Positions 1 to 15,938 of a stretch of 15,938 nucleotides of DNA are shown in pieces. Each line of letters begins with the position of its first letter. The stretch's first letter is position 1. The stretch comes from Candidatus Thorarchaeota archaeon. Lineage in GTDB: Archaea; Asgardarchaeota; Thorarchaeia; Thorarchaeales; Thorarchaeaceae. The stretch is taken from contig JAEOSL010000083.1 of NCBI GenBank assembly GCA_016840385.1, positions 1 through 15,938 on the forward strand, given 5' to 3'. The notes beneath the pieces were generated by a model. The model did not search any database. It was not told where the DNA came from and saw only the letters and a program-made list of their open reading frames with translations. The position numbers were made by a program, and so were the translations under genes.

Positions 1-2
1 GA

Positions 3-143: not shown

Positions 144-152
144 GAACGAAGG

Positions 153-158: not shown

Positions 159-172
159 CCGATTATGACGGT

Positions 173-191: not shown

Positions 192-200
192 GTGAAACAA

Positions 201-923: not shown

Positions 924-1013
924 ATATTAACTGCGTTCACTCAAAATTACACACCCATTTGTTTATGAGGGAGATAGGACTCACCAGAAGGTCCATCAAT
1001 AGAGATGATTACT

Positions 1014-1988: not shown

Positions 1989-2043
1989 TCGCATAGACCG
2001 CTACATTAATTGTGTAGCTTGTTTACGATTTCGATGATGCAAT

Positions 2044-2424
2044 ATGAGTCCAGAACAGGTTTCAACTGATAATGCTCCGAAAGCAATTGGTCCCTATTCA
2101 CAGGGAATCAAAGCAAATGGATTTGTTTTCTGCTCAGGGCAGATCCCAGCAAATCCTGAAACAGGTGAACTGGTCAAAGGTTCGATTACTGAACAGACAC
2201 GACAGTCTCTGTCCAATGTCAAGGGAGTGATTGAAGCAGCTGGTTCATCGATGAGCAAAATTGCTAAGGTCACCGTCTTCTTGAAGGACATGAATGATTT
2301 TGCTGAGATGAATGCAGAATATGCAAATTGGTTCTCAGATCCACCTCCTGCACGAGCTGCAGTTGAAGTTGCGCGGTTGCCGAAAGACGTTGACGTCGAG
2401 ATTGAAGCAATAGCAGAACTCTAA
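2044..2424 (+). CDS. ridA: RidA/YjgF-family reactive imine deaminase
   Basis: A 126-residue RidA-type protein, normal for this homotrimeric family, which hydrolyses 2-aminoacrylate and related enamine/imine by-products of PLP enzymes to ketoacids and ammonia. The hallmark sequences are all present: AIGPYSQG (14-21), FCSGQIP (29-35), the conserved PARAAVEVA with R104 as the carboxylate-binding arginine, [13 protein letters not shown] (112-124) and the late glutamate E122. The start follows a short GATGATG-containing leader at 2033-2039. It lies 55 bases after carbamate kinase on the same strand and may be co-transcribed with it, although a weak 5-base dyad (CTACA 2001-2005, TGTAG 2013-2017) sits between them. 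RidA next to nitrogen-catabolic genes is common. The archaeal protein could act on other imines. Confidence 0.92.
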
Positions 2425-2437
2425 GAATCCCATTTAG

Positions 2438-2463
2438 TTTGTAGGTGATTATAAACCTACGAA
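2438..2463 (+). other. RNA hairpin 1 in the ridA 3' region
   Basis: TTTGTAGGT (2438-2446) pairs with ACCTACGAA (2455-2463) through nine pairs, one of them a U-G wobble, around an 8-base loop. It begins 13 bases after the ridA stop. No T-run follows, so it is not an ordinary intrinsic terminator; it may protect the transcript's 3' end. It is immediately followed by a longer hairpin. Confidence 0.5.
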
Positions 2464-2468
2464 GTAAC

Positions 2469-2516
2469 ATGAATCTGCATACTGTGAGAAACGCACTCAT
2501 AGTGTGCAGGATTCAT
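2469..2516 (+). ncRNA. Long 20-pair hairpin, candidate structured RNA
   Basis: The arm 2469-2488 pairs with 2496-2516 to give 7 pairs (ATGAATC/GATTCAT), one bulged G at 2509, then 13 pairs (TGCATACTGTGAG/CTCATAGTGTGCA) around a 7-base loop. Two of the pairs are U-G or G-U and would become A-C mismatches on the other strand, so the structure suits a transcript read from the plus strand. The loop-side segment GCACTCAT (2493-2500) can instead pair with ATGAGTGC (2524-2531), which would break the upper stem. The region may be a 3' UTR element of ridA, a small RNA, or a switch. No known RNA family was recognised. Confidence 0.45.
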
Positions 2517-2584
2517 TGGGAAAATGAGTGCATGTTAGCTGTGCCACCGCCTACTCATTCATTCAAAGCACGCATCTCATCCTA

Positions 2585-2595
2585 AACCTTTTAAC
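2585..2595 (+). promoter_or_regulatory. TATA-like box for the surface glycoprotein gene
   Basis: AAACCTTTTAA resembles a combined archaeal BRE/TATA element. A start about 25 bases downstream falls near 2617, between the arms of the CCGATA/TATCGG dyad and 24 bases before the chosen ATG at 2641. This also argues against the longer frame beginning at ATG 2614. Confidence 0.45.
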
Positions 2596-2640
2596 TCCAG
2601 CCGATAGGCATGGATGTGCATATCGGATAGTGCTGTGACT

Positions 2641-3744
2641 ATGGATTCAAATCAAACTAAACTTCTTGCCATTGTTCTTGTTGCTATAATGGTATCAGGT
2701 GGAGCAATGGCGGCACTTGTCCTCATGCAACCCACTAACAATACACCAGAGCAGTTCGTGGAAATAGTAGGAATAGGAGCTTCGCAGAATATTACACTTT
2801 CAGATATGTTGGCAATGACAACTGTGACTGGAAATAGCTCCTATCAGAATACATATGGAAACATTAGAGGTGGAGGTTTCTACACAGGAGTTAGAGTTTC
2901 AGATCTCGTAGACCTCGTGGGTGGAATGGGTGAGAATGATTCACTACGGATTGTTGCTGCTGATGATTACAGTCTATCATTCGAACGTTCCAAAGTGTAC
3001 CCCAACTCTACATACCTTGATATTCAAGGTGAAATGATTCTTGCTTACAAATATAATGAATCAACAGTACCCGATTATGAAGATGGTTTTAGATTGGCTT
3101 TCATTCCACAAGATGGATACTACTCAAATGCCGATGCAAACGAAACGACAGATCCGAACCCAGCAGCAGCAGGTCCGCAATGGGTGTCTAATGTCGCAAG
3201 GATAGAAGTTATGCTAAATCTATTCAGTGAAACTCTAGAGGTCAATGAAACCTATCTAAGATCGCTCCCATCAATAACTGGTGAGGGAGGATACAAGAAA
3301 AAATCTGGGGACATTGTTGGACCATTCAATTTCACCGGTGTTGCCATCAGTGTTTTACTTCAGCAATTCTCAACGCTTTTAGAAAACTACATGATTTTAG
3401 CACGAAGCGGAGATGGGACAACAAGTGAGTATTCCAAAACAGTTGTAGAAGGAGCAGTCAGTGGTTATACCCCGAGTGGAACTCCACTTGACTCGATTAA
3501 CTCAACTATGATCCTTGCCTATGAACAAGATGGTGCTCCAATTACTGATATAGGACCGCTACAGGTAGTTTTCTTGAATGAAGATGGTAATCTAACAGAT
3601 GGATTCAGATGGGTAAAAGATGTTGTGAGCATTACACTCATGGAACAAAGTCCTACGACATTGATACTCTCTAACTATATATTATCTCATACAGATTATT
3701 GCTCTGTTAATGATGCATATATTACAGACCAAAAATGGTCCTGA
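2641..3744 (+). CDS. Membrane-anchored surface glycoprotein with two sulfite-oxidase-like (molybdopterin-oxidoreductase-type) domains
   Basis: A 367-residue protein with an N-terminal hydrophobic helix (about residues 7-28) that should anchor it to the membrane with the rest outside. The body contains two copies of one domain. Copy 1 has LSDMLAMTTVTG, GGFYTGVRVSDLV, RIVAADDYSLSF, then ILAY and WVSNVARIEV; copy 2 repeats this as LRSLPSITGEGG, PFNFTGVAISVLL, MILARSGDG, MILAY and WVKDVVSITL. The pattern resembles oxidoreductase molybdopterin-binding domains seen in archaeal surface proteins, but no cofactor-ligating cysteine is visible, so a binding or structural role is as likely as catalysis. 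Eleven N-x-S/T sequons fit a glycosylated exported protein. ATG 2641 is preferred to ATG 2614 because it directly precedes the anchor helix and lies after the predicted transcription start. Domain call is moderately sure; function unknown. Confidence 0.7.
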   Translation: MDSNQTKLLAIVLVAIMVSGGAMAALVLMQPTNNTPEQFVEIVGIGASQNITLSDMLAMTTVTGNSSYQNTYGNIRGGGFYTGVRVSDLVDLVGGMGENDSLRIVAADDYSLSFERSKVYPNSTYLDIQGEMILAYKYNESTVPDYEDGFRLAFIPQDGYYSNADANETTDPNPAAAGPQWVSNVARIEVMLNLFSETLEVNETYLRSLPSITGEGGYKKKSGDIVGPFNFTGVAISVLLQQFSTLLENYMILARSGDGTTSEYSKTVVEGAVSGYTPSGTPLDSINSTMILAYEQDGAPITDIGPLQVVFLNEDGNLTDGFRWVKDVVSITLMEQSPTTLILSNYILSHTDYCSVNDAYITDQKWS

Positions 3745-3804
3745 TGAAATAATGCAGTCAAAGCAATGGTTTTATTCACATCTGCGTGGGCCGATGATGA
3801 ATAC

Positions 3805-3823
3805 AAGCTGATTTTGACAGCTT
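3805..3823 (+). other. Small hairpin upstream of the TPR gene
   Basis: AAGCTG (3805-3810) and CAGCTT (3818-3823) flank a 7-base loop and are followed by TTTT. It could end the glycoprotein transcript or lie in the leader of the TPR gene, whose possible TATA-like TTTTAT is near 3771-3776. Six pairs only; weak support. Confidence 0.3.
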
Positions 3824-3843
3824 TTGGTAAGGATTGAGATAGA

Positions 3844-4473
3844 GTGGTTCGACACACAATTGACTGCAATGAAGCAGATACACTCATTGGTGAGGCTACT
3901 TCTTTGATAGAGAAGAAGCGGTATATCGAAGCAGTGTCCACTCTTCAAAGAGGAATCACTGTTGATCCTAACAATCCCAAAGTTTGGGAAAATATGGCAA
4001 TTTGCAATTTAGAATTGGGAAAGCCAAAGATGGCCCTTCAAGCTTTGAACAATCTTGTTAGAATCCAACCACAATGTCATACTGGTTGGGCAGATAAGGG
4101 ATTTCTTCATCTATTACTCAACGAAACAAACGAAGGCATTGATGCCTTACAAGAAAGTCTGAGAATAAACCCTCGAAGAGTCTATGGTTGGGAACTTCTC
4201 GGAATGGTTCTTGTTACCGAGGAGCGTTGGGAAGAAGCAATTGATGTTCTTGAAAGAACTCTCGACCTGAATCCTAATTCTGCAGTTACTTGGTACAATC
4301 TTGCAGTGTGTTACTTGTTATTTGATGAATTAGGTCTAGCTGTTCAATCTGCGGAAGTAGCTTTCTCTATTGATCCTTCATTGAAGGAGCTTGCAGAAGA
4401 TTGGTGGGATATAGTTCAAGATGATATTGTAGATGATGTCTTCATCTCACTGACAAAAACCTCAGCAAGTTAG
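3844..4473 (+). CDS. Tetratricopeptide repeat (TPR) protein
   Basis: A soluble 209-residue protein made almost wholly of about five TPRs with the 34-residue period and typical W-A-G-Y-A-P positions. Approximate repeats are 13-46 (ending ITVDPN), 47-80 (WENMAICNLELGK...), 81-114 (GWADKGFLHLL...INPR), 115-148 (GWELLGMVLVTEERWEEAIDVL...LNPN) and 149-182 (WYNLAVCYLLFDE...IDPS). A short acidic tail follows. TPRs act as protein-binding scaffolds; no catalytic part is present. The GTG at 3844 is used because an in-frame stop lies at 3835 and no ATG comes before the first repeat. The gene ends one base before the stop of the convergent WD40 gene. Whether it works with the nearby WD40 and GTPase modules is unknown. 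Confidence 0.85.
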   Translation: MVRHTIDCNEADTLIGEATSLIEKKRYIEAVSTLQRGITVDPNNPKVWENMAICNLELGKPKMALQALNNLVRIQPQCHTGWADKGFLHLLLNETNEGIDALQESLRINPRRVYGWELLGMVLVTEERWEEAIDVLERTLDLNPNSAVTWYNLAVCYLLFDELGLAVQSAEVAFSIDPSLKELAEDWWDIVQDDIVDDVFISLTKTSAS

Positions 4474-4474
4474 A

Positions 4475-6370
4475 TTAAGTAGCATTATCCTTGTCAAGTA
4501 GGGCTAGTTCTTTTTTGAGTGCTTTGATAGATTTTGTGAGTTTGAAACTCTTTGCTGATTCGAGAGCTTGCTGGATTGCTGTAACAAGACGGAGTCGTTC
4601 TTCTTCTTGTTCATCAGGATCTGTGATAACGCCAAGGGCATCTCTTCTCTTTGGAATTATCAATAGAAGTGTGTCAATGGTTTCCGTAGCCTCCTCACGA
4701 TTTGAAAAAACCGGTTCAGTTTTGGATTCAGATGATGAAACAATCCAATCGATCTGTTCGAATAGTTTCTTGTATTCATCCAAAGCATTTGCTAGAACAG
4801 TCCTTACTTCACCTTCAGGTTCTGCTTCATCAAGTGCAGAAGAAATTCGTTCAATTGAGGTTCCCAAGAAATCCTTTCTTTCAACAAGGCTAGAACGCTT
4901 TCGCTCCATCTTGTGCCATTCATTTGATATTTGTCGAGTTAGTGCTATTGCTTGATTGATGGTTTCTCGAAAAGTATCGTACAGAGTCATTGCATCTGTC
5001 AATATTGAATCAAGCGTATCTATCTCGTGAGTCAGTTGCAAACTCAACATGTCGCTAGACTGAGCATCAGCTAGAACGCGACTCTCTTTTATCACACGAC
5101 CTGCAGCTGCCCAGAAACGATTGACATCTTCAGGGTTCATCTCCGTTCGCTTATGTTCTTGAAGTTCTTGAGAGAGTTGTGTGATATCTTGACATATTCC
5201 CTGGACTTCACTGATTTTTGCTTTGAGAAGTGCTTTGCCTAAGCGTGTATCCAGTTCATCAGTAAGCAACTGTCGTTCTTCAGGAACTTCCTGAAGAGCA
5301 CGCGTGTTGTCAATTATGAGTTGCATTGCATTCTCGTACTCGATTACAGCTTCATGGTAGAGACCTTCCTGATACTTTTGGTCTCCACTTCGCTCGAGTT
5401 TCAAAGAATCTTCTAGAACATCATATGGTGATGTCATGAGAAGACTGTCTTGCCAAGTCAGTGAACCTTCACTATGAACGTCTAGAGGTCTTCCAGAGGC
5501 TTTAAGCTGCAATATGTAAATACCAGTAGATGTTGCTACATATAGCAAATCGTGATCAGCTGTGACGTACACAATCTTGCTCCCATTCAATTCGATATGC
5601 CCAACTTCATCTCCACGTTTTGTGTCCCAAATAGACAGATTACCTGATGATTGAGCAACAACTAGATAGTTATCACTTGCCCACATAGAGGATATCATAC
5701 TCGAATTCCTTTGTTCAAAGGTTTTCGAAAGACTCCATTCAGTTCTCTCGTATACATCAACCTCTCCGGATGGAGATCCAACAAAAACAAATTCAGAGTT
5801 GCCAGTTACTATTCCACCCTTTCCCTTCCCGTTAAGACGGGTGAGTTCAGATGGTGCACTACCAGATTCTTTCTTCCATACTCGGGGTTCTTCCTTTTTC
5901 GTACTGGTACAGATTATTTGGTCATCAGACCAGATACTGGATAAATCAGATTTGTGTAGTTGCCAGCTCGATGTTTCGTGAGACTCTTTTTGTATAGAAA
6001 CGAGACGACCTTCTTTTGCTCCAATAAAGAAGAAATCACCTTGAAGCAATGAAGTGATAGCTTGATAGCTTAATTCAAACCATCCAATCATCCCCCATGA
6101 TTCCTTTTTCCAAACATAGACCCGCTTCTCACAGGTTGCATAAACTTGCCCTTCATCAACATCAACGGCAAGAGGTTCTGCGTCAGTTACATTCAACTCT
6201 GCGGTAAGTTGCCAGGTGGTTTTGTCAAATACACGAATATGATGGTCAGTACAAGCGGCATAGACATACTTGTCATCGTAATCAATGTCTATAGCATCTA
6301 CTTCCAAAAGGGAAATGGATTCATGACTAACAATGGTAGAGTCACTTCCACCCTTCAATGAATTATCCAT
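4475..6370 (-). CDS. WD40-type beta-propeller protein with a long helical C-terminal half
   Basis: Numbered from the in-frame ATG at 6376, residues 26-300 form about seven beta-propeller blades, each with the strand pattern seen in WD40 repeats, for example YVYAACTDHHIRVFDKTTW (38-56), VYATCEKRVYVWKKESW (78-94), VFVGSPSGEVDVYERTEW (197-214) and LVVAQSSGNLSIWDTKRG (238-255). Residues 326-358 resemble one TPR helix pair (YQEGLYHEAVIEYENAM), and 360-633 are charged helices with coiled-coil character. No signal peptide or membrane segment is seen. ATG 6370 is chosen because GGGGATGATT lies just before it; ATG 6376 would leave the G-rich site almost touching the start. It is divergent to the three-gene GTPase operon and may share its control region. 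Propeller-plus-helical architecture suits a scaffold. Exact function is not recognised. Confidence 0.8.
   Translation of the reverse strand: MDNSLKGGSDSTIVSHESISLLEVDAIDIDYDDKYVYAACTDHHIRVFDKTTWQLTAELNVTDAEPLAVDVDEGQVYATCEKRVYVWKKESWGMIGWFELSYQAITSLLQGDFFFIGAKEGRLVSIQKESHETSSWQLHKSDLSSIWSDDQIICTSTKKEEPRVWKKESGSAPSELTRLNGKGKGGIVTGNSEFVFVGSPSGEVDVYERTEWSLSKTFEQRNSSMISSMWASDNYLVVAQSSGNLSIWDTKRGDEVGHIELNGSKIVYVTADHDLLYVATSTGIYILQLKASGRPLDVHSEGSLTWQDSLLMTSPYDVLEDSLKLERSGDQKYQEGLYHEAVIEYENAMQLIIDNTRALQEVPEERQLLTDELDTRLGKALLKAKISEVQGICQDITQLSQELQEHKRTEMNPEDVNRFWAAAGRVIKESRVLADAQSSDMLSLQLTHEIDTLDSILTDAMTLYDTFRETINQAIALTRQISNEWHKMERKRSSLVERKDFLGTSIERISSALDEAEPEGEVRTVLANALDEYKKLFEQIDWIVSSSESKTEPVFSNREEATETIDTLLLIIPKRRDALGVITDPDEQEEERLRLVTAIQQALESAKSFKLTKSIKALKKELALLDKDNAT
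4511..4516 (+). terminator. T-run, possible terminator of the TPR gene
   Basis: Six T's on the plus strand, 38 bases past the TPR stop and inside the 3' end of the convergent WD40 gene. Archaeal polymerase can terminate at T-rich stretches without a hairpin. Conversely, A5 at 4455-4459 reads as T5 on the minus strand just after the WD40 stop. Confidence 0.3.
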
Positions 6371-6376
6371 AATCAT

Positions 6377-6562
6377 CCCCTTGTAAAGTAGTGTGTCTAA
6401 TAACTAAACTTAGGACTGCTTATGTTAGTTTCCTTCTAGATAAAAAACGCACAAACTAGCGATTTATTGGACCAGAAACGGGAGAATACATGACACAATC
6501 GTTGAAAAGGGGCGGTACACAGAAAGCAAATAAGATATCCCCAGAATAGATAGCCGCACTAG
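6377..6562. promoter_or_regulatory. Divergent control region between the WD40 gene and the GTPase operon
   Basis: AT-rich divergent region. A TATA-like TTTATT at 6463-6468 could serve the plus-strand operon, with a predicted start near 6490; the tract GATAAAAAAC at 6439-6448 reads as GTTTTTTATC on the minus strand and could serve the WD40 gene. AACTAA (6402-6407) and TTAGTT (6425-6430) form a weak dyad between them. A short open frame lies at 6490-6549. These assignments are positional. Confidence 0.4.
6490..6549 (+). CDS. Possible 19-residue leader peptide upstream of the GTPase operon
   Basis: ATG 6490 to TAG 6549 encodes MTQSLKRGGTQKANKISPE, a very basic short peptide. GGAG at 6481-6484 lies five bases upstream, a reasonable ribosome site, and the frame ends 28 bases before the TTG start of the helical-repeat gene. 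It may be a translated leader or a chance frame; if transcription starts near 6490 the SD would not be included in the RNA. No family recognised. Confidence 0.25.
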   Translation: MTQSLKRGGTQKANKISPE

Positions 6563-6564
6563 AT

Positions 6565-6570
6565 GGAGGT
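6565..6570 (+). promoter_or_regulatory. Shine-Dalgarno site deciding the TTG 6578 start
   Basis: Perfect GGAGGT with a 7-base spacer to TTG 6578. The site overlaps an in-frame upstream ATG (6563), which would otherwise be the default start. Confidence 0.7.
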
Positions 6571-6577
6571 AGGCACC

Positions 6578-9265
6578 TTGGATTCACACGGATGGAGGCG
6601 AGAACTCGACAAATTCGCCGAATTGAAAGGAATACTTGTTTCAGTTAATCCTGCAATGGAGGAACAGTCAAATCGTCAGGTTCGACATTTATACGATATT
6701 TTTGCGAACCTAAGCAAGTTTGAGAATGATCTAACAACAGCAGGTTTCACGAAAAAAGGAAAGATAAAGAAAGAAGTGGAAAAATCAGCTAGTGAACTTG
6801 AAGACGCGTTCATGCGTGCAACAAGAGATTTTGCTGAACACTTCAGAAAGGAACAGAAGGATGTAATTGCGATTGCTCCTAAACTTCAAGAGATAAAACC
6901 AGCTGAAACTAAGGCAATCACTGCCATCAGCTTCCCAGGAGTTGGTGCAGGTGATTTGAAGGACTTTGAGAAGTTACTTGAATTCGCTAAAGCATTCGCA
7001 AACGTACACGCAGGTATTTACGGAGACGTAAGTCGTCAGGTGAAATCCACTCTGGATGAGAACAAGGCTATTGTGGAAACTTATGAAAGACATATCACCA
7101 TTGACAAGGGCGAAGTCGCTACTACAGTTGCAAATGATGATGTAGTCGATCTATCAATGAAAGACCTGATTATTCTCAATGATAAACTAAATGAGGATAA
7201 GACGTACCTTGATGGTCGTAAGGATGAGGTAAGTAGGTTACTTGGAACTTCTTTAGTTAGCGATACTGGCTCCCTACAAGCTTCTGTTGAAACTGCATCA
7301 AGATTGGGTCTAGAGCTACCTATGGAATTCTCACAAAAGCTCAGGATTCTCCAAAGAGATGCTGGAAAGGCTAATACACTAACAGACTTGGTAAGTCTTG
7401 AAAATCAATTACACACCTCCAAGGTCAAACTTGCCAATATGCTCCGTGACAAAATCATCAACATCAAACACGAGGTTACTCAGAAGATTGTTGATGGAGG
7501 AATTCCAACTACTTCAGATGTTATCCCAACTCCACCAGAAGTAAGTGTTGAAGGAGAAGGTGTTGCAGGATTACTATCAAGCTATCAACGTATGGTTGAG
7601 TGGGAAGGTCAGGTCAAGATAGCTCTACGTGAGCAAGTGATGGAACTTCTTGACGACGTTGAGAAGGCTACTGATGTTCCAGAAGATACTGGAATTAAAG
7701 ACGTAGATGCGGTTCGTCAGTTCATTGCAGAGTCCAAGAAGACACTCAAGGATACAGAAGTTGATGAGATGGTTAGGATCTATCTCAAGGCTTCAGGTAT
7801 GAATGACGATTACAAGAAGAATATCACTGAGAGCATTCGCTCCTACCTCGGTCGTTTCAACGAGCTTGCTACCTCAGCTGATAGAGTTTTAGATTATGCG
7901 CAACTCAGTAAGAAAGCACCAAAGGTAGAGGAGCTTGAAGGAGGGATAACTTACCTCCTCGAATCACTTGCAAACTTACGAACTGCTGTTGAAAGCGGTG
8001 TAGCAACCTTTAGGGATGCTTGTCAGCAAGAAATCGATGCAATCGTTCAAGACTTGCAGACAATCAAACCTGCCTATGCTGAGATATTCCTACCAATCAT
8101 TGTTGACCTCGATGGTGGAGCAAGTAGAATTCAGAAGATGGATGATTTCTCAGAAATCAAATCAGAGATGCGTACCATCAAAGAAACCATGCTAGCAAAG
8201 GCTAATGATTCACTAGAAAACCTACGCTACAGATTAGGAGTTAAGATACGACTAGCTGCTGCGAAACTAATGGGTGCAGGAGTCGAGATCCCTCCAGAGG
8301 TTCAAGAGGCAATAAGTGAACTCAACAGTGTTTCAATTGCAGCTGACAATGTCTTTGGTTTACCAGCAATTGCACGAAAGATGGTTGAAATTTACGAGAA
8401 GAAGATCTCATCCAAGGTCATCGTTCAATTGGATGCGGAGGTTGATTCTCTCACAATTTCTCTTGAAAAAGCTCAGAGTATTGGAGTCAAAGTTGGTAAA
8501 GAGCTGAAGTTGCTCGAAGGGATGAAATCCAAACCACCTCAAGAACTTGAAGATGCAGCTGATTACTTTGATAGACTGATGAATCTAACAACCTCTCCAA
8601 ATGTGCATAAGAAAATCAGAGAACGTGTTGATGAAGCCTATGAACAAATCAAAAATGCAGTTTCACTGTTTGAAAATCAGGGCATGTCAGAATTTGTAGA
8701 GCGTCTCAAGGCACTCATTGATCAAGTTCCAGCTAAATTAGAAAATGATTCTCCACACGTCAATGAGGCATTAGATGTGTGTTTGACCCTGGCGAATATT
8801 CAAGAAGAAATGCTCACTGTCATCAAGAACATTGCTAATATCAGTGCACAGAAGTATGATACAGAACTCAAGGAAAAGAGTCAGTACATCTCAACTATCG
8901 AAAGAGTCGTTGAGAAATATCCTGATGAATTCAGTAAAATCGTCTTTGACACAAATAAGATGAAGGGACTTGAGTCCACCTTGATAGAGTCAAATGGACT
9001 TGATGAAGCAATAGCTGCTTTCCACGAACTTGAAGGTATGCGAAAGAAGTGGTTAGATCAAGCCGTTGCGATGGATGATTGGCACAAATCATTGAGAATG
9101 TTCATGACAGGATTCAGTGCAAGTGCTAAAGCTGATGATCGCGATAAGTTCCTTGATGATGCCACAAGGAAAATAAGAGAAACCTATTCAAGAGAAGACA
9201 TCAGTTCCTATCTCACTTGGGCAATCAAAGAAACTGCTCAGGCTCTAGTCGATAAGAAGAAGTAA
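6578..9265 (+). CDS. Large all-helical repeat protein, first gene of the GTPase operon
   Basis: Not recognised by family. About 895 residues, almost entirely charged amphipathic helix, with no signal peptide, membrane helix or enzyme motif. Reading by eye, from about residue 104 (numbered from ATG 6563) it is built of degenerate units of 57-76 residues, average about 67, each opening with a short proline- or glycine-containing segment and closing with long helices. The clearest openings are LGLELPMEF (248), GAGVEIPPEV (571), SIGVKVGKEL (639) and KYPDEF (785); weaker ones lie near 311, 370, 444, 501 and 709. This suggests a rod or solenoid resembling spectrin-like proteins in style only. TTG 6578 is chosen because a perfect GGAGGT at 6565-6570 sits seven bases upstream; that GGAGGT would be codons 1-3 of the longer ATG 6563 frame. 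The next gene starts 13 bases after its stop. Probably a structural partner of the GTPase. Confidence 0.8.
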   Translation: MDSHGWRRELDKFAELKGILVSVNPAMEEQSNRQVRHLYDIFANLSKFENDLTTAGFTKKGKIKKEVEKSASELEDAFMRATRDFAEHFRKEQKDVIAIAPKLQEIKPAETKAITAISFPGVGAGDLKDFEKLLEFAKAFANVHAGIYGDVSRQVKSTLDENKAIVETYERHITIDKGEVATTVANDDVVDLSMKDLIILNDKLNEDKTYLDGRKDEVSRLLGTSLVSDTGSLQASVETASRLGLELPMEFSQKLRILQRDAGKANTLTDLVSLENQLHTSKVKLANMLRDKIINIKHEVTQKIVDGGIPTTSDVIPTPPEVSVEGEGVAGLLSSYQRMVEWEGQVKIALREQVMELLDDVEKATDVPEDTGIKDVDAVRQFIAESKKTLKDTEVDEMVRIYLKASGMNDDYKKNITESIRSYLGRFNELATSADRVLDYAQLSKKAPKVEELEGGITYLLESLANLRTAVESGVATFRDACQQEIDAIVQDLQTIKPAYAEIFLPIIVDLDGGASRIQKMDDFSEIKSEMRTIKETMLAKANDSLENLRYRLGVKIRLAAAKLMGAGVEIPPEVQEAISELNSVSIAADNVFGLPAIARKMVEIYEKKISSKVIVQLDAEVDSLTISLEKAQSIGVKVGKELKLLEGMKSKPPQELEDAADYFDRLMNLTTSPNVHKKIRERVDEAYEQIKNAVSLFENQGMSEFVERLKALIDQVPAKLENDSPHVNEALDVCLTLANIQEEMLTVIKNIANISAQKYDTELKEKSQYISTIERVVEKYPDEFSKIVFDTNKMKGLESTLIESNGLDEAIAAFHELEGMRKKWLDQAVAMDDWHKSLRMFMTGFSASAKADDRDKFLDDATRKIRETYSREDISSYLTWAIKETAQALVDKKK

Positions 9266-9278
9266 GGAGAAATAGTCC

Positions 9279-10667
9279 ATGTTAAGAGGCAATTCCGGTA
9301 CGGTAGAGAGTGATGAAACAACTAAGGCTGCAGAAGTATTCGCTATAGGTATAGGCGAATGTGGCAGCAATATTGTGGGCTCATATCTCCAATCAAGTCG
9401 TGACAATAAACTACCATCAAGAGTCCGTGGCTATCTTCTCATCAATACTGATCGAGCAGACCTTACAAAAGTCCGACAGAAGTATGGCATCCCAAAGGAG
9501 AATACTCTCCTCTATGGTGCATCTGAAATCGGTGTCGGTGGTCGTTTCATGGATGGATATAACGCCATCATGGAATCAAAGGATATTATCTTCGACCAGC
9601 TTGCTAACCTTGGTTTTGAAGGAGTTTCAGGCTTCTGTATCTTCACCTCCCTAGGAGGCGGTACAGGTTGTGGTGGAACCCCAGCTATCATTGAGTTACT
9701 CAAACAGAGATTCCAAGAAGAAGAGGGTCGACGAATCTTCGTCTACGTTGTCGGTATTCTACCATTCGAAGGGCAGTCAAGTGAAGCTCTGAACTCGATA
9801 TGGGCGGTTTCCAAACTGCTCCGTGCACAGCTCCAAGAGCGGGGTGCAGATCTTACAATTCTACTTTCTAACAGAACTATGCTGAAGAGAATCTTGCAAT
9901 GGAGAAAGGGTGAATCTGTTGATTATCTTCGCAGAGAACTCGATGTTGATATTGCAGATATCGATTCAATCGAGAAGATGGTTCCATCTACATTAGATGA
10001 AGGTGGCGTAGTCGAATCTCGAACCGAACAGGCGTTCGTTGAGCTTGTAAATCCAATGGCACTCGATGTTGTTGAAGCCATGCTATCACCAGGTGTTTGG
10101 GAGAGTCACAAAGATGTTTTCCCAACAACGGACTTGGCAGACTATTCGAGAAAACTTGATCCTGTAGTAGTACCAGCGCTCTATTCAGATATCGGATTGA
10201 TTCCTGATGCGGGTAGCATGCCAAAGCAGCTCGAGACGATGATCGACTATGCAGTCAAAGAGTGTAGTTACGCAGACGTTGGTGAAGAACCGAACGCTGA
10301 GAGTGTATACTACGTCATGTCAGGACCAAGGAATATTGCTAAAGCAGAATATGGAATGCATGTTAAAGAAGCACTGGACAAGTTCATTGCTCCAGGAGCA
10401 GCTATCACACCATGTTATGTACAATATCACATACCTGATGCAAAAACCGACCTTCTCTTACTTTTAGGATTACCAAAGATACCAGAGCTAGTAACAATCA
10501 TCAATGAGGCAACTCAACTTGTGAACCTTCATAGTGGTTCTTCACCTCTGAAGCAAGGATGGTTTATGAGATCTAAGGGAACCTCAAGGAAAGAACTTGT
10601 TGATGCAATCAATGACTTCCGTGAATTGTTCAGCTACTATATGACACCAGGCGAAACAATGGAATAA
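9279..10667 (+). CDS. Divergent tubulin/FtsZ-superfamily GTPase
   Basis: A 462-residue protein with the GTP-binding loops of the tubulin/FtsZ fold in order: T1 AIGIGECGSNIVGSYL (22-37, between FtsZ GGGGGN and tubulin GQCGN types), T2 LLINTDRADL (53-62), T3 SEIGVGGRFMDG (82-93), T4 FTSLGGGTGCGGTP (122-135, the superfamily signature), T5 YVVGILPFEGQ (156-166), T6 DLTILLSNRTML (191-202), and a T7-like NPMALDVVEAML (258-269). In FtsZ the T7 loop is N-x-D-x-x-D-V; here the asparagine and second aspartate (N258, D263) remain but the first aspartate is M260, so hydrolysis may be slow or altered. An acidic insertion of about 40 residues separates T6 from T7, and the protein is longer than typical FtsZ. 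AAGGAGA precedes ATG 9279. It lies between two helical proteins with 12-13-base gaps. Could belong to a CetZ-like, FtsZ-like or unnamed family; it is not a standard FtsZ. Confidence 0.88.
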   Translation: MLRGNSGTVESDETTKAAEVFAIGIGECGSNIVGSYLQSSRDNKLPSRVRGYLLINTDRADLTKVRQKYGIPKENTLLYGASEIGVGGRFMDGYNAIMESKDIIFDQLANLGFEGVSGFCIFTSLGGGTGCGGTPAIIELLKQRFQEEEGRRIFVYVVGILPFEGQSSEALNSIWAVSKLLRAQLQERGADLTILLSNRTMLKRILQWRKGESVDYLRRELDVDIADIDSIEKMVPSTLDEGGVVESRTEQAFVELVNPMALDVVEAMLSPGVWESHKDVFPTTDLADYSRKLDPVVVPALYSDIGLIPDAGSMPKQLETMIDYAVKECSYADVGEEPNAESVYYVMSGPRNIAKAEYGMHVKEALDKFIAPGAAITPCYVQYHIPDAKTDLLLLLGLPKIPELVTIINEATQLVNLHSGSSPLKQGWFMRSKGTSRKELVDAINDFRELFSYYMTPGETME

Positions 10668-10679
10668 GGTGGTTACAGT

Positions 10680-11750
10680 TTGTCTGAAGACTCATCATTT
10701 CATTTCGAAGACCTGATTGATAGAATGCTGTTGCTAGTTACATTGAATTCAACATTAGTTCATTTTCTACTAAGTTCCCAAGTTGAAGGTAGTATTGATC
10801 CCGATAGGGTCGACTCGCTCACTCAAGGATTACTTAGAACAAGAAAATGGATGGAAGAAGCAACTACAATGAAAGGAGTTCCTCCATCAACACAGAATAT
10901 CTTGAGTCTTATCGTCAAGCGACTATCACAGGTTGAAAGTCTTCTTCCAAAGCTCTCCGACAAAGCCAGACAGGCAGAAGAAAATCCAGCTCAGGAGATA
11001 CTCTCATTCCTTGATGGAGCAAAGGCTCCCACTGGTGCAACCACAACAACACAAACTGGGACTACTACCGCTCCAGCAGAAGCCGAATTAGTACCGCTAG
11101 TTGGAGAAACTGAAATAAAGACGGTGGAAGCATACAGAAAGGTGGATGTAGAAGATGATCAGTTTGGACTGATTGGTCAGATTCAGAGACAGATCCAACA
11201 ATACTCCGCTCGTTGTCACGTAATGTTACCAACATGGTGGTTAGAAGTTCTTCGTGAAATTCATCGATATAAATCAGAATCACCATATCTTGGCGATGTT
11301 ATCGAGCTACCTTCACGAATTCTAGTTAAGATCACTAAATCTTTACTCACAGAAGCACCTGGTGCAAGACTCCTTCAAGATTTGATGAAGTCTCGTCAAC
11401 AGGAGAATTATCTCAATGCCTCGGAACAAGAACGGATTGAGAGAGCTGTGAGCAAGTACTTCCAAGGTCTTGAGGGGATACTCAAAGAACAAGATGTCAA
11501 TGTTCAAGAGAAGATCCTGGAAGCTCAGACAGCCTTTGATGGGTTTGGCTGGGGTGGACCTGAACTTGAGAAACGACTAATCAAGAGATTGAATCAGCAG
11601 TGTGAAGAAGCTCTTCAGAGTGCAGAGTCAGGAAGTGATGTACCACGACAGGTCATCTATGCAGAGATTACAAAGATGCTCTGCAAACTTCAGCATGCTA
11701 TGCTAGCTGAACCAAGACCTCGAGAGATACTTGCTCAGATGAAGCCATAG
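10680..11750 (+). CDS. Unrecognised two-part helical protein, last gene of the GTPase operon
   Basis: No family recognised. 356 residues in two helical parts joined by a flexible linker. Part 1 (1-112) has a hydrophobic helix at 16-32 (MLLLVTLNSTLVHFLLS), perhaps a bundle core or a membrane-contacting helix, followed by helices through LSQVESLLPKLSDKAR. The linker (about 113-136) is rich in Thr, Ala, Pro and Gly. Part 2 (137-356) is predicted helical, with a conserved-looking aromatic patch PTWWLEVLREIHRY (184-197) and GFGWGGPELEKRL (288-300). The start is TTG 10680, with AGGTGG (10667-10672) seven bases upstream; the gap to the GTPase stop is 12 bases, so translation is likely coupled. Linker-joined two-part architecture suits an adaptor, for example between filament and membrane or filament and rod, but this is inference from position only. 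Confidence 0.8.
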   Translation: MSEDSSFHFEDLIDRMLLLVTLNSTLVHFLLSSQVEGSIDPDRVDSLTQGLLRTRKWMEEATTMKGVPPSTQNILSLIVKRLSQVESLLPKLSDKARQAEENPAQEILSFLDGAKAPTGATTTTQTGTTTAPAEAELVPLVGETEIKTVEAYRKVDVEDDQFGLIGQIQRQIQQYSARCHVMLPTWWLEVLREIHRYKSESPYLGDVIELPSRILVKITKSLLTEAPGARLLQDLMKSRQQENYLNASEQERIERAVSKYFQGLEGILKEQDVNVQEKILEAQTAFDGFGWGGPELEKRLIKRLNQQCEEALQSAESGSDVPRQVIYAEITKMLCKLQHAMLAEPRPREILAQMKP

Positions 11751-11791
11751 ATTCCCTACAGACTTGTTGCATAGATTTCATAGGCGCAGTT

Positions 11792-11799
11792 CATATAAG
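11792..11799 (+). promoter_or_regulatory. TATA box of the acyl-CoA synthetase gene
   Basis: CATATAAG lies about 50 bases upstream of ATG 11843, predicting a transcription start near 11820 and a leader of about 23 bases that contains GAGGG at 11832-11836 as ribosome site. It separates this gene from the GTPase operon. Confidence 0.5.
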
Positions 11800-11842
11800 G
11801 GATAGTTACAATTCCGACTCTATTACAACACGAGGGAAAGTA

Positions 11843-13249
11843 ATGTCCAGTCTAAAGACTATGCTAAAACCCAAGGTCACTGCAGTTGTTGGTGTATCTA
11901 CTTCAAATCCATTCTCTCCAGGGAATGTTATTTTCAGAAAACTTGCTTTTGAAAATGGACTACCGACATATCCTATCAATCCGAAGGGAGGAAAGGTAGA
12001 AGGTGTTGATGTTTACAAATCAATTGCAGAAGCTCCAAACGATATCGAACTCGTAGTTATCTCTGTACCAGCCAAGTATGTTTCAGGCGTTTTGGAACAG
12101 TGTGGAGTAAAAGGAATTAAATCTGTAATTGTTGTTTCAGGGGGATTCAGTGAGGTTGGTGATAGTGGAGCAATTCTTCAGACTGAGATAATTGAAATCG
12201 CAAACAAATACAATATCTCAATGGTCGGTCCAAATTGTATCGGAGTATTTGTTCCTGAAACTTTAGACACATTCTTCCTCCCATCAGAACGAGTTGCACG
12301 TTCAAGAAAAGGTCATGCAGCAATCATCTCACAGAGTGGTGGCTGGCTAATAGAAAGATTAGAGGAGTTTGCAGATAGACGAGTTGGCGTAGCAGCTGCA
12401 ATCTCTATTGGTAACGCCGCTCAGACTAAGGTGACAGATTTCATTGAACACTTTGGTAAGGATGATAACGTAAATGTCATCCTATGTTACATTGAAGGTT
12501 TTGGCAAAGGTGAAGGACGGAGATTTGTAGAAGCTTGTAAGAAGATTGCCAAAAAGAAACCTGTAGTAGTTCTAAAAGGTGGTGAGTCTGAAGCTGGACA
12601 CAGAGCAACTCAGAGTCATACTTCTTCGCTAGCTGGTGATCAGGCTGTGGCAAGTGCTGCTTTTAGTCAGTATGGCGTAATTCATGCTAGAGATGAGGAT
12701 GAAGTCATGGCATATGCCAAGATATTCTCATTCAAACCTAAGTATATGAAAAGCGATAGAGTCGGTACACTCTCAGTAAGCGGTGGGCATGGAGTAATTG
12801 CTAGTGATGAGGCTTCACAATATGGAATTGAGTTTCCACCCTTCTCTGAAGAAGAACAAGCAAGGATGAGAGAAGTCATGACTCCTGCGTATCAAGGAAT
12901 CGCTTCATTCAGAAATCCTTGTGACCTGACTGGATCCGCTTCAGATGTTGATTATGAAAAGGTCCTAGACATTATGCTCTCTTTGGATAAGATAGATGCA
13001 GGATTGTTGTTGTTACTACCATATGCTCCAGGTATTTCTCTGCAGATAGGAGCACGAGTTGCTAACGTATCAAAACGTCATCCAAAAGCAGTTGTTGCAT
13101 ATGTTCCGGATCTAGACAAATACGAAGTAATCATACGAGGCTTCGAGCTTAATGGAATTGCTGTGGCTGACACTATAGAAGAAGCAGTTCAGATGCTCAA
13201 TGGTATTCGAACAAGAACAAGGTATTTGCAGAGTATCGGTGCTTGCTAG
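11843..13249 (+). CDS. ADP-forming acyl-CoA (acetyl-CoA) synthetase, alpha subunit
   Basis: Alpha part of the NDP-forming acyl-CoA synthetase, which converts acyl-CoA, ADP and phosphate to acid, CoA and ATP; in many archaea it makes ATP at the end of peptide or sugar fermentation. It has 468 residues in the order CoA-binding domain (TAVVGVSTSNPFSPGNVIF, 13-31), ligase domain with GPNCIG (129-134) and SQSGG (163-167), and a C-terminal flavodoxin-like ligase domain (GTLSVSGGHGVIASDEA). The phosphorylated catalytic histidine is visible as H259 in SHTSSLAGD (258-266), matching the His-T-x-S-L-A-G motif. The ATP-grasp domains are absent, so a separate beta subunit is needed; none is in this window. 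The stop TAG is formed by CTAG at 13246-13249, which also forms the stop of the convergent isomerase gene. Substrate (acetyl, branched or aryl) cannot be told. Confidence 0.9.
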   Translation: MSSLKTMLKPKVTAVVGVSTSNPFSPGNVIFRKLAFENGLPTYPINPKGGKVEGVDVYKSIAEAPNDIELVVISVPAKYVSGVLEQCGVKGIKSVIVVSGGFSEVGDSGAILQTEIIEIANKYNISMVGPNCIGVFVPETLDTFFLPSERVARSRKGHAAIISQSGGWLIERLEEFADRRVGVAAAISIGNAAQTKVTDFIEHFGKDDNVNVILCYIEGFGKGEGRRFVEACKKIAKKKPVVVLKGGESEAGHRATQSHTSSLAGDQAVASAAFSQYGVIHARDEDEVMAYAKIFSFKPKYMKSDRVGTLSVSGGHGVIASDEASQYGIEFPPFSEEEQARMREVMTPAYQGIASFRNPCDLTGSASDVDYEKVLDIMLSLDKIDAGLLLLLPYAPGISLQIGARVANVSKRHPKAVVAYVPDLDKYEVIIRGFELNGIAVADTIEEAVQMLNGIRTRTRYLQSIGAC

Positions 13250-14376
13250 GTTCCTCGTGCAACCTTCTTGAAATCGATATCAAGAGACTTCAATGCTTCG
13301 ACAAGCTTGCCCTTTAGGATAAGTGGTCGTGATGAGAAATCACTCACGCTTTGACATCCATTAAGATACATTGCTACCTTGAGTCCTTCTAGAAATCGTT
13401 CTAACTCAACGACAACATCAAGGGATGATCCGTGAACAGCGGGTCTAAGAACTGGATGAGCTAAACCTGCAGAAATAGCTCCCAAGCTTAGCGCTTTTGC
13501 CACATCCATTCCTGAACGGATACCACCTGTCGCAATCACATCAAGTTCCGTAGAATCAAGAACCATAATGACACTCAGGGCTGTAGGTATTCCCCATGAC
13601 CAGAACTCAAGACCAAGTCGAGCTTTAATTTCATCCTCTTCTTTGAGAGCTCGGAAGTATTCAACAGCAGCCCAACTCGTACCACCGACGCCACCAACAT
13701 CTACACCATCAATACCAATCTCTTCAAGATTACGAGCGACTTCTGATGATATACCAGCACCAGTTTCTTTTGCAATCACAGGAATATCAACTGAGTCAAC
13801 AATAGCAGCGATGCTCTCAACCATACCTTCGGAATTGATATCACCCTCTGGTTGAATTGCTTCCTGCAGAGGATTGAGATGAACTGCGAGAATATCCGCG
13901 TCAATCATCGATACAGCATCAGGCGCAGCCTTCACATGTGTAGCTCCAATATTTGCTATCACTGGAACAGATGGAGCTTTCTCTCGTACGATTCTGAAAG
14001 TATCTGCAAGAGAGGGATCTTCGACTGCAGCTCGTTGACTCCCAACTCCAATTGGAAGACCTAATTCTTCAGCAGCTATTGCAAGCCGTTCGTTGATTCC
14101 ATGCGTATGGGGATGACCACCGGTCATAGCTGCAATAATTAAAGGTGCAGAGGCCTTAAGACCAAAGAAGTTAGTTGTAAGATCGATTTTTTCCATGTCT
14201 ATTTCAGGAAGAGCATTGTGGACAAACTCAATATCCTCAAACATGGCAGATGTTCGACATTGAACATCCTCGTCTAGACAAATCTCAATATGCTCAATCT
14301 TTCTTCGACGGGTCATCGAAGCTTCTGAACTAAGATCCTCTACATCATCGCGGGAGAAAGGTTTGTCATCAACCAA
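13246..14376 (-). CDS. fni: Type 2 isopentenyl-diphosphate delta-isomerase (FMN-dependent)
   Basis: FMN- and NADPH-dependent TIM-barrel enzyme interconverting isopentenyl and dimethylallyl diphosphate, giving precursors of archaeal lipid chains. Numbered from the chosen start (376 residues): RRRKIEHIEICL (23-34), AAMTGGHPH (82-90), GVGSQRAAVEDP (110-121), IANIGA (140-145), the signature VHLNPLQEAIQPEGD (165-179) with the histidine, asparagine, glutamine and metal-binding glutamate, and the C-terminal FMN-phosphate motif TGGIRSGMDVAKAL. TTG 14376 is chosen because a perfect GGAGGT (14388-14383 on the minus strand) is six bases upstream; the longer ATG 14439 frame adds residues atypical of the family, and the internal ATG 14316 lacks an SD. 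It is convergent with the acyl-CoA synthetase, sharing the 4-base CTAG stop overlap, and divergent from the membrane-protein gene. Confidence 0.94.
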   Translation of the reverse strand: MVDDKPFSRDDVEDLSSEASMTRRRKIEHIEICLDEDVQCRTSAMFEDIEFVHNALPEIDMEKIDLTTNFFGLKASAPLIIAAMTGGHPHTHGINERLAIAAEELGLPIGVGSQRAAVEDPSLADTFRIVREKAPSVPVIANIGATHVKAAPDAVSMIDADILAVHLNPLQEAIQPEGDINSEGMVESIAAIVDSVDIPVIAKETGAGISSEVARNLEEIGIDGVDVGGVGGTSWAAVEYFRALKEEDEIKARLGLEFWSWGIPTALSVIMVLDSTELDVIATGGIRSGMDVAKALSLGAISAGLAHPVLRPAVHGSSLDVVVELERFLEGLKVAMYLNGCQSVSDFSSRPLILKGKLVEALKSLDIDFKKVARGT

Positions 14377-14382
14377 TACTCT

Positions 14383-14388
14383 ACCTCC
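14383..14388 (-). promoter_or_regulatory. Shine-Dalgarno site of fni
   Basis: ACCTCC on the plus strand is GGAGGT on the minus strand, six bases before TTG 14376. It decides the start and makes the upstream in-frame ATG at 14439 unlikely. Confidence 0.65.
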
Positions 14389-14480
14389 ATGGATATACTG
14401 AGAATCATAGCCAATACGCAGATAGCACTTGCGGTGCAACTCGCATCACTTTTTTTTCAATACTTGCGCGATACAAAGCC

Positions 14481-14487
14481 TTTATTC
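14481..14487 (+). promoter_or_regulatory. TATA-like box of the membrane-protein gene
   Basis: TTTATTC within GCCTTTATTCAATATTC predicts a transcription start near 14509, about 12 bases before ATG 14521. This favours 14521 over the in-frame ATG 14389, which lies upstream of the promoter and abuts the fni ribosome site. Confidence 0.4.
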
Positions 14488-14520
14488 AATATTCTACATC
14501 AAAAATACTCAGTGACAAAG

Positions 14521-15069
14521 ATGACGGAAGAGGAAAAGTATAGACTAGAGGACCCAGAAGAAGTGGAAGTAGTTGAAAAAGAGAAGAAGGGTCTCTTTAG
14601 ACCACTCCCACAAGTTGAAACTAAAACACGTATGAAAGATGGAAAAGCACAGCCTATTGTCAAATTTCTGGGGATTCCGATGTATGAGAAGAATCGTGAT
14701 ATTCTCCTCCTCCTCCTCATGCCAATGCTTGCAGGTCTCATCAATTCATCAATCTACTCCTATGTAACGCTTAGTCTCGTACCGTCATCAGCAGAATACC
14801 TGTTCTACCTTCCTGTACTTGTTGCAATTCCAATTGGTCTTGTCGTATCTGAAACAGGTCCAGCATTGATCGGTGGATTCCTCAGTGCATTATTCTTCTT
14901 CATATTCTTCATAGCGTTTCTAACAACTCCAGCACTCTTCACACCAGAATTGGGAGTCGCTAATTTTCTAATTAGCGGAATTGCACTGTCTGTTGGTTAC
15001 TTCCTATTCGTAATAGTAGCAGGATTACTTGGCGCTGTAATTGGTACAATCATACGTGAATTCGCGTGA
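14521..15069 (+). CDS. Small multi-spanning membrane protein of unknown function
   Basis: Not recognised. 182 residues: a charged cytoplasmic-type N-terminus (1-58, very acidic EDPEEVEVVEKEKK followed by a basic patch) and four or five membrane segments at about 60-84 (DILLLLLMPMLAGLINSS), 93-110 (YLFYLPVLVAIPIGLVVS), 113-140 (ALIGGFLSALFFFIFFIAF), and 147-178 (one long or two short glycine-containing segments ending GAVIGTII). Polar residues within the membrane are few, so a channel or transporter role is not indicated. ATG 14521 is preferred because the region 14389-14520 contains the promoter and the fni ribosome site. The gene ends in four successive in-frame stop codons (TGA TGA TAA TAA, 15067-15078). 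It is followed by purN behind a separate promoter, so no functional link to the neighbours can be argued. Confidence 0.7.
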   Translation: MTEEEKYRLEDPEEVEVVEKEKKGLFRPLPQVETKTRMKDGKAQPIVKFLGIPMYEKNRDILLLLLMPMLAGLINSSIYSYVTLSLVPSSAEYLFYLPVLVAIPIGLVVSETGPALIGGFLSALFFFIFFIAFLTTPALFTPELGVANFLISGIALSVGYFLFVIVAGLLGAVIGTIIREFA

Positions 15070-15101
15070 TGATAATAAAATCAGCATACCTCTTCAGAGT
15101 A

Positions 15102-15121
15102 CATTAGAATTAGTGCTAATG
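15102..15121 (+). other. Inverted repeat between the membrane-protein gene and purN
   Basis: CATTAG (15102-15107) and CTAATG (15116-15121) flank 8 bases, with a further ATTAG copy inside (15109-15113). It lies upstream of the purN TATA-like box and could be a regulator site for purine genes or a weak 3' hairpin of the preceding gene. Confidence 0.3.
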
Positions 15122-15140
15122 CCATTTCAAGCAGGAAGAG

Positions 15141-15150
15141 ATTTTATTAG
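15141..15150 (+). promoter_or_regulatory. TATA-like box of purN
   Basis: ATTTTATTAG is centred about 30 bases upstream of ATG 15175, predicting a start only 3-5 bases before the ATG. No SD is visible in the bases just upstream of the ATG, so the message is probably nearly leaderless. Confidence 0.5.
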
Positions 15151-15174
15151 GAGTTATTTTTCTGATACCTTCGC

Positions 15175-15753
15175 ATGAGAAGGATAGGCGTCCTTGTTAG
15201 TGGGAGAGGTTCCAATCTTCAGGCTCTCCTTGATGCCGAATCCCGTGGGGAGCTAAGTGGGCAGATTGTTGTTGTGATTAGTAATAAGAGTCAAGCTTTT
15301 GCGCTGGAAAGAGCAAGGAAGGTTGGTGTACAAACAATACTGGTTACAAAAGCAGAATTTCCTGATAGAGAGATGTTTGATGAACAGGTAGCTGAAATAC
15401 TTCGTTCTTACAAGGTGGACCTTGTTGTACTAGCAGGATACATGAGAATGTTCACTGAGCAATTCATCAACGAGTTTCAAGGTAGGATAATCAATGTACA
15501 TCCATCGTTGCTTCCCGCATTCAAGGGAGTAAGAGCACAGTGGCAAGCGATTGAGTATGGTGCCAAGGTATCAGGATGTTCCACTCATTTTGTGACGCTC
15601 GATATGGATGCAGGTCCAATAATCATGCAGAAGGCAGTACCAATTCTTTCTGATGATACAGGTGAAACACTGGCTGAAAGGATTCTTCCAGAAGAGCACA
15701 GAATCCTGGTGAAATCGGTTCGATTATTCTGCGAAGATAAACTTATGCAATGA
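15175..15753 (+). CDS. purN: Phosphoribosylglycinamide formyltransferase (GAR transformylase)
   Basis: Third step of purine synthesis: transfers a formyl group from 10-formyltetrahydrofolate (or an archaeal pterin analogue) to glycinamide ribonucleotide. It has 192 residues, the usual single-domain length. The phosphate-binding SGRGSNLQAL is at 9-18; the catalytic trio is intact as N107 and H109 in INVHPSLLPAFKG (106-118) and D145 in DAGPII (145-150), matching N106, H108 and D144 of the E. coli enzyme. GCSTHFV (134-140) is also typical. The substrate loop KGVRAQWQAIEYG differs slightly from the usual KGLHTHRQAL type but keeps the KG and A. The start codon directly begins the first beta strand (MRRIGVLVSG), so no shorter start is plausible. 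purF follows 32 bases later, pointing to a purine operon. Confidence 0.95.
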   Translation: MRRIGVLVSGRGSNLQALLDAESRGELSGQIVVVISNKSQAFALERARKVGVQTILVTKAEFPDREMFDEQVAEILRSYKVDLVVLAGYMRMFTEQFINEFQGRIINVHPSLLPAFKGVRAQWQAIEYGAKVSGCSTHFVTLDMDAGPIIMQKAVPILSDDTGETLAERILPEEHRILVKSVRLFCEDKLMQ

Positions 15754-15785
15754 TCGTGAAGTAACAATTAGGGAGTAGTGGTGGT

Positions 15786-15938
15786 ATGTGTGGAGTACTA
15801 GGGATACTTGGGAATTTTCCACTTCGAAGTGCGAGAGAACTTCTTCTCCTGCTTACTCATAGAGGGCAGGATGCAGCAGGTCTCCTTTGGAGTGATAATG
15901 GAGTTGTGAAGACCAGCAAAGCAATGGGACATCCAGGG
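15786..15938 (+). CDS. purF: Amidophosphoribosyltransferase, N-terminal part (cut by window end)
   Basis: The first 51 codons of a class II glutamine amidotransferase, running off the window. After initiator removal the protein begins with the nucleophilic cysteine, in MCGVLGILG, and contains LLTHRGQDAAGLLWSD, the conserved HRGQ-x-AG stretch of PurF. PurF makes phosphoribosylamine from PRPP and glutamine, the first committed step of purine synthesis, so its place right after purN fits. GGGAG (15771-15775) and GGTGG (15780-15784) lie upstream of the ATG; the more distant GGGAG has better spacing. Other class II amidotransferases (glucosamine-6-phosphate synthase, asparagine synthetase) also begin MCG, but the HRGQDAAGL form and the neighbour favour PurF. 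Confidence 0.85.
   Translation, partial: MCGVLGILGNFPLRSARELLLLLTHRGQDAAGLLWSDNGVVKTSKAMGHPG

Follow-up and report, generated by a model that had tools for sequence, protein, structure and literature searches.

What does a divergent GTPase of the tubulin/FtsZ superfamily do in an archaeon when its gene stands between two genes for helical proteins? The question is raised by contig JAEOSL010000083.1 of a Candidatus Thorarchaeota archaeon, analysed here over its positions 1 to 15,938 (the window, always meant as this whole stretch of 15,938 nucleotides), in which three co-directional genes, called A, B and C below, are separated by 13 bases (A-B) and 12 bases (B-C). Our answer, which we hold to be probable although well short of certain, is that they encode a GTP-driven filament, a rod-like linker and an adaptor, separate from the cell-division FtsZ.

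The A-B-C operon and its conservation

A preliminary description made from the DNA had reported the three genes, gaps of 12-13 bases and a Shine-Dalgarno site for each. All of these are present:

6565-6570, + strand: ribosome-binding site of gene A, GGAGGT, 7 bases upstream of the TTG
6578-9265, + strand: gene A, TTG start, 895 amino acids, predicted all-helical rod protein
8885-9262, + strand: conserved C-terminal end of gene A (residues 775-900, counted from 6563), from the family alignment
9266-9269, + strand: ribosome-binding site of gene B, GGAG, immediately 3' of the gene A stop
9279-10667, + strand: gene B, tubulin/FtsZ-superfamily GTPase of 462 amino acids, family so far from Asgard archaea only
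9348-9371, + strand: T1 GTP-binding loop of gene B, GIGECGSN, from the homologue alignment
9654-9677, + strand: T4 GTP-binding loop of gene B, GGGTGCGG, residues 126-133
10128-10145, + strand: T7-like catalytic loop of gene B, TDLADY, from the homologue alignment
10668-10672, + strand: ribosome-binding site of gene C, GGTGG, immediately 3' of the gene B stop
10680-11750, + strand: gene C, TTG start, 356 amino acids, helical protein
10728-10784, + strand: conserved hydrophobic first helix of gene C (residues 17-35), candidate membrane-contact or bundle-core helix

The open frame of gene A reaches back to an ATG at 6563, from which it would encode 900 amino acids. The TTG at 6578, the start already chosen in the preliminary description, is backed both by the GGAGGT upstream of it and by the family consensus M-D-S-x-x-W-R-R, which begins there.

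Sixty-three loci were retrieved with a profile of B, and their neighbours were then scored with profiles of A, B and C. Homologues of B might have stood without these partners, but as a rule they do not: gene A lies immediately upstream in 55 of the 58 loci having enough DNA and gene C immediately downstream in 54 of 57, with median gaps of 12 bases (A-B) and 14 bases (B-C). The order is kept in all four loci of the most divergent genomes (G010-G013), where the spacing is near zero or the genes overlap. Among 227 Asgard genomes, A was matched in 70, B in 71 and C in 68 (thresholds E 1e-10, 1e-10 and 1e-5, respectively; some matches are fragments at contig ends), and the three occur together in 65 of the 73 genomes carrying any of them; the Fisher tests of this co-occurrence ignore kinship. 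Genomes with an incomplete trio may reflect genome gaps. Gene B is 94-95% identical in four Thorarchaeota loci (L001-L004), and nine comparisons with three relatives gave ratios of nonsynonymous to synonymous polymorphism (pN/pS) of 0.05-0.17 for A, B and C, which indicates purifying selection. Since all three genes are under such selection and their order is kept across distant Asgard lineages, the arrangement is not due to chance; the trio is old. About 8,000 candidates were scored in each homologue search, and no homologue from outside the Asgard archaea was found among the named rows of the best 120 of 159 matches for A, 154 for B and 197 for C, many rows being nameless.

Several loci depart from a strict trio. 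Gene A does not adjoin B in L024 (a gap of 513 bases) or in L046 (4.3 kilobases with another gene) and was not found at L047, while C is missing at L053, L056 and L057. These last three carry an A-B paralogue of Hodarchaeales, and this paralogue without C is the sole systematic exception.

The gene between A and B in L046 (4145-7753) encodes 1,202 amino acids without a Pfam match and has a homologue upstream of B in L047 (5307-7628). Two loci titled Lokiarchaeota, L015 and L024, hold a B that is 86-87% identical to that of the Thorarchaeota window and show the Thor-type synteny, so their titles are probably wrong or broad.

Placement of the GTPase B within the tubulin/FtsZ superfamily

The protein of gene B matches PF00091 with an E value of 3e-20 (73.7 bits against a cut-off of 33), its sole curated domain match, and the same family is matched by 26 of 26 B family members at E 5 or better. 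The motifs for which it had been singled out are in place: NTD stands at residues 56-58, the T4 loop contains a GGGTG that is invariant among aligned homologues, and the two aspartates of the T7-like loop, D285 and D288, are invariant in 26 of 26. The latter loop reads T-D-L-A-D-Y, as against N-x-D-[FY]-A-D in the FtsZ rows. Among the matches of the 26 members there is no tubulin or FtsZ C-terminal domain, and Tubulin_C (PF03953) is absent at E 5. The window protein stays below the cut-offs of the FtsZ equivalog TIGR00065 (35.2 bits against 295.2) and of Tubulin_2/FtsZl1, PF13809 (19.9 bits against 27); the latter family is weakly matched by 25 of the 26 members, with a best E value of 1.9e-5. 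Canonical FtsZ, in one or two genes, coexists with one or two B genes in all eight genomes checked.

A tree was built under LG+C20 from 419 columns and 47 rows, namely 26 B sequences (a chosen subset of the family), 11 Asgard FtsZ, E. coli FtsZ, five CetZ from haloarchaeal plasmid records and four Asgard tubulins; the sampling is thus of FtsZ, CetZ and tubulin, without artubulin, TubZ or FtsZl1. Each group forms one side of a branch, with supports of 100/99 for FtsZ (12 rows), 100/99 for CetZ, 100/100 for tubulin and 85/96 for B, the last lying below the tree program's star. B is therefore placed outside the FtsZ clade, the clade of the five haloarchaeal CetZ rows and the tubulin clade. This agrees with the preliminary description, which had taken B for a divergent member of the superfamily and not the division FtsZ, and for which a position inside FtsZ1, FtsZ2 or CetZ would have counted against it.

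The nearest relative of B is a different matter. The best tree joins it with the tubulins at 99/97, with long branches meeting, and neither a union with CetZ (p 0.196) nor one with FtsZ (p 0.202) is rejected. In half-protein profiles (16 B rows; two B, one tubulin and one FtsZ row without a recognised T7 motif were excluded), the N-terminal half of B lies closest to CetZ (E 8.7e-14), followed by tubulin (1.5e-10) and FtsZ (7.7e-10). The C-terminal end is weakly tubulin-like at its last helices: the score of 22.3 is reached by one of 150 column shuffles (mean 12.8, standard deviation 2.3), while the score against CetZ is reached by 5 and that against FtsZ by 126 of 150 shuffles. This comparison used 153 of 213 B rows, the distinct C-terminal pieces with a recognised motif. 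The profile signals are thus split, and B is, as judged from sequence, a deep group of its own whose closest kin may be tubulin, CetZ or FtsZ.

The best solved-structure match to B is 4b46, listed as 'cell division protein FtsZ', which we take to be Haloferax CetZ1; the likeness to CetZ is that of the N-terminal half, whereas the C-terminal half has no detectable likeness to it. The Asgard tubulins AtubA/B and OdinTubulin have superfamily and phylum in common with B and are united with it in the best tree, but possess a Tubulin_C domain that is unmatched in B. A Tubulin_C match was found in three of the 227 Asgard genomes (G043, G176 and G177; loci L122-L125), all three without B, which is too few to call exclusion; according to passages of PMC13394414, Asgard tubulins occur in about 1% of Asgard genomes. 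FtsZl1, described in excerpts of Makarova and Koonin (PMC2875224) as divergent FtsZ-type proteins proposed to act in membrane remodelling, resembles B in having dedicated gene neighbours. However, FtsZl1 has a coiled coil of its own and usually stands beside vWA, GTPase, kinase or OmpA genes, and both FtsZl1 and FtsZl2 occur in gene contexts differing from A-B-C (same excerpts); B is without such domains, and none of these genes lies beside it in the window.

We take Lokiarchaeia in the GTDB sense to include Thorarchaeales. The Asg.Tub proteins are tubulin-superfamily paralogues of Heimdallarchaeia and Lokiarchaeia whose placement between CetZ and tubulins is unstable and whose neighbours are coiled-coil genes of unknown nature (Santana-Molina et al., PMC9871819, in excerpt). 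Since taxon range and coiled-coil neighbours agree, the B family is very probably this published, uncharacterised group, and the GTPase has thus probably appeared in the literature already; passages of PMC9856176 also mention non-canonical members of the superfamily from Asgard archaea. What differs is the context. The excerpted text of PMC9871819 treats the neighbours as unknown, unrelated genes and mentions neither a conserved operon of three genes with orthologous partners nor the modular lengthening of A or the Hodarchaeales paralogue. We found no description of the conserved operon or of the partner families in the portions seen of open-licence papers, preprints and supplements aside.

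Predicted architecture of proteins A and C

As the preliminary description had noted of the two flanking proteins, A and C are almost entirely helical, here in AlphaFold2 models, and neither reaches the cut-off of any Pfam or NCBIfam family. The model of A consists of long-short-long helix modules with a period of about 134 residues, starting near residues 62, 199, 334, 462, 597 and 733 (counted from 6563). Gene A is thus predicted to encode a rod of about six such modules. Its C-terminal end is the most conserved part: it makes up 14% of the length and holds 15 of the 39 positions that are invariant or nearly so. The profiles of Thor-type and Hodarchaeales A align end to end (E 1.4e-53) and, when offset by about 135 residues, align a second time at E 4.8e-5, compared with 1.7e-3 at best for a profile against its own reversal. 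In other lineages extra stretches of about 259 residues lengthen the protein (in the A-B paralogue 242, in L060 380), which would correspond roughly to whole modules. Hodarchaeales A thereby reaches about 1,170 amino acids and the L060 form 1,311, the insert lying near residues 357-395 of the window protein. Internal sequence repeats were also sought by aligning the six model-derived modules with hhalign; the scores barely exceeded those of reversed controls, so the case for repeats relies mainly on the model and the insert lengths. In L010 (7115-7978) the A frame is truncated by a run of N in the chromosome record and its shortness is an assembly gap.

Protein C is modelled with a mean predicted local distance difference test score (pLDDT) of 87.6. 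A three-helix N-terminal domain (residues 9-111) is followed by a low-confidence linker (pLDDT under 50 at residues 113-135) and a compact, conserved helical domain (residues 164-354, pLDDT about 97). All 13 invariant positions fall within residues 160-355, including a motif like E-A-P-x-A-R-L-L-Q. The most hydrophobic stretch of 19 residues lies in the first helix in 37 of 40 rows and elsewhere in L010, L038 and L055; its mean hydropathy ranges from 1.18 to 2.25 and is 1.47 in the window protein. The first helix could touch a membrane or form the core of the bundle.

Structure searches gave few leads. With Foldseek against the PDB, A and C each had no match under E 0.001, and the VIA-align matches went no further than the likeness shared by common helical bundles, and many of them were enzymes unconnected with filaments. 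The alignments scarcely covered the C-terminal domain of C, and we therefore make no claim of a new fold for it. The model of A bears a weak structural likeness to the rods of EzrA and PRC1. EzrA, a spectrin-like FtsZ regulator of Firmicutes, carries an N-terminal membrane anchor that has no clear counterpart in A, and its modules of about 100 residues differ from those of about 134 in A, no sequence relation between the two being shown. According to passages of PMC4243239, EzrA binds an FtsZ-type GTPase and is a rod built of three-helix modules, with no sequence likeness among its repeats; it thus sets a precedent for such a protein.

Filament, rod and adaptor, and the competing explanations

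In the mechanism that we favour, B would bind GTP and form protofilaments in which the subunits stack head to tail and each T7 loop completes the GTPase site of the neighbouring subunit. In tubulin and FtsZ polymers, T4 and T7 jointly form this inter-subunit site, and the conservation of both in B argues for head-to-tail polymers. A would be a long flexible rod; its conserved C-terminal end would probably attach it to the B filaments, which it would bridge or space as EzrA does on FtsZ or spectrin-type linkers elsewhere. C would act as an adaptor that grips A or B with its conserved helical domain, while the N-terminal helical domain, variable and hydrophobic, contacts a membrane or another surface. 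In the aligned B rows shown, the sequence stops at the last helix and no FtsZ-type C-terminal tail follows, so that B would have to be anchored by other means, for which A and C would be the obvious candidates. We infer the polymerisation of B, the contacts among the three proteins and any membrane link, the last being the weakest step, and the rod and domain architecture of A and C is predicted from models. Of the preliminary description, a divergent GTPase of the superfamily, other than the division FtsZ and in one operon with two dedicated helical partners, is supported; that the module would polymerise or shape membranes goes beyond this, and the membrane part draws on the borderline hydrophobic helix of C.

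B could instead be an extra division protein, a third FtsZ joining FtsZ1 and FtsZ2 in the Z-ring with A as an EzrA-like ring regulator. Haloferax does divide the work of division between two FtsZ paralogues (PMC12993045, in excerpt), and the weak resemblance of A to EzrA would fit. We nevertheless consider this unlikely: B forms a clade apart from FtsZ, lacks the FtsZ-type tail in the rows shown, and is unmatched in 156 of the 227 Asgard genomes, so that it is not a general part of the division machinery. Nor does the window hold a recognised division gene; FtsA, SepF and ESCRT families are absent from the Pfam matches of its 13 main genes, in agreement with the preliminary description.

To the same low degree we would credit a B that does not polymerise and serves as a GTP switch or nucleotide sensor fixed in a complex by A and C. 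A stable complex is what the nearly constant presence of both partners beside B would suggest, and the T7 loop does depart from the FtsZ pattern; yet T4 and T7 are both retained, down to the two invariant aspartates.

The genes outside the trio, which vary by lineage in a recount of homologues across loci, bear on another explanation. Thor-type loci are flanked by genes for a WD40 protein, a TPR protein, carbamate kinase and isopentenyl-diphosphate isomerase, and two flanking genes of the window are placed as follows:

4475-6376, - strand: WD40 plus helical protein, divergent to gene A
11843-13249: acyl-CoA-synthetase-type gene (ADP-forming, alpha-type), behind C in Thor-type loci

Of the 28 Thor-type loci with more than 1.5 kilobases upstream of A, 26 carry the WD40 gene, which is absent from the loci of other lineages. 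The acyl-CoA-synthetase-type gene is the only flanking gene found common to lineages, with a more distantly related homologue (253-268 bits) in each of the 4 Sif/Borr loci; the flanking-gene queries had no match in 6 Hermod loci or in the four loci of G010-G013. Twelve A-B-C loci are of the Hodarchaeales type. There, an Arf-family GTPase (6/12), a Cdc48-like gene (8/12) and a molybdopterin-binding-domain gene (8/12) recur, lying upstream of A in several loci. In nine of the twelve (among L041-L047, L052 and L062) a gene of about 290 codons follows C, its L042 copy being without a Pfam match, and in eight loci a convergent gene of about 250 codons lies behind it. The second A-B pair of Hodarchaeales is preceded by a conserved gene for about 311 amino acids (its L053 copy has no Pfam match) and adjoins two Gtr1/RagA-type GTPases in all three loci, with E values of 1.8e-39 and 9.3e-31 in L053 and 2.7e-40 in L056 and with homologues in L057; L053 also encodes a roadblock protein.

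These neighbours could mean that small eukaryote-like GTPases direct the module in organising internal membranes or vesicles, as the Arf-family and Cdc48-like genes beside the trio and the Gtr1/RagA-type GTPases and roadblock protein beside the paralogue would suggest. No homologues of them were found, however, in 38 Thor-type, 6 Hermod, 4 Sif/Borr and the four divergent loci. Small eukaryote-like GTPases are abundant in Asgard genomes, so the adjacency may be chance, and we judge this explanation improbable too. A DNA segregation system of the TubZRC kind, with which A-B-C has in common that one operon unites a tubulin-superfamily GTPase and dedicated partners, is very improbable, given that loci lie on chromosome-titled records (L010, L014 and L041-L043), that A and C match no DNA-binding domain of Pfam or NCBIfam (a divergent one may exist) and that none of 72,556 plasmid records matches B at E 0.01.

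The filament, rod and adaptor that we favour also admit a bolder reading, which we offer tentatively and with more doubt than belief. A-B-C might be a third tubulin-superfamily cytoskeleton of Asgard archaea, beside division FtsZ and the rare Atub microtubules, in which a stem relative of tubulin is joined by an adaptor and by a spectrin-like rod of adjustable length, with coupling to Arf- and Rag-type GTPases in Hodarchaeales. If so, it would be far commoner than Atub (71 against 3 of 227 genomes) and would represent an early system of filament plus accessory proteins en route to the eukaryotic cytoskeleton.

No known prokaryotes are closer to eukaryotes than the Asgard archaea, and tubulins are rare among them. 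The B family, found in 71 of 227 Asgard genomes and nearly always in an operon that spans lineages, brings two probable partners of its own. A-B-C is thereby a defined set of three proteins, open to expression and to assays of filament formation, bundling and membrane binding, and it provides a second route to asking how tubulin-type filaments gained accessory proteins.

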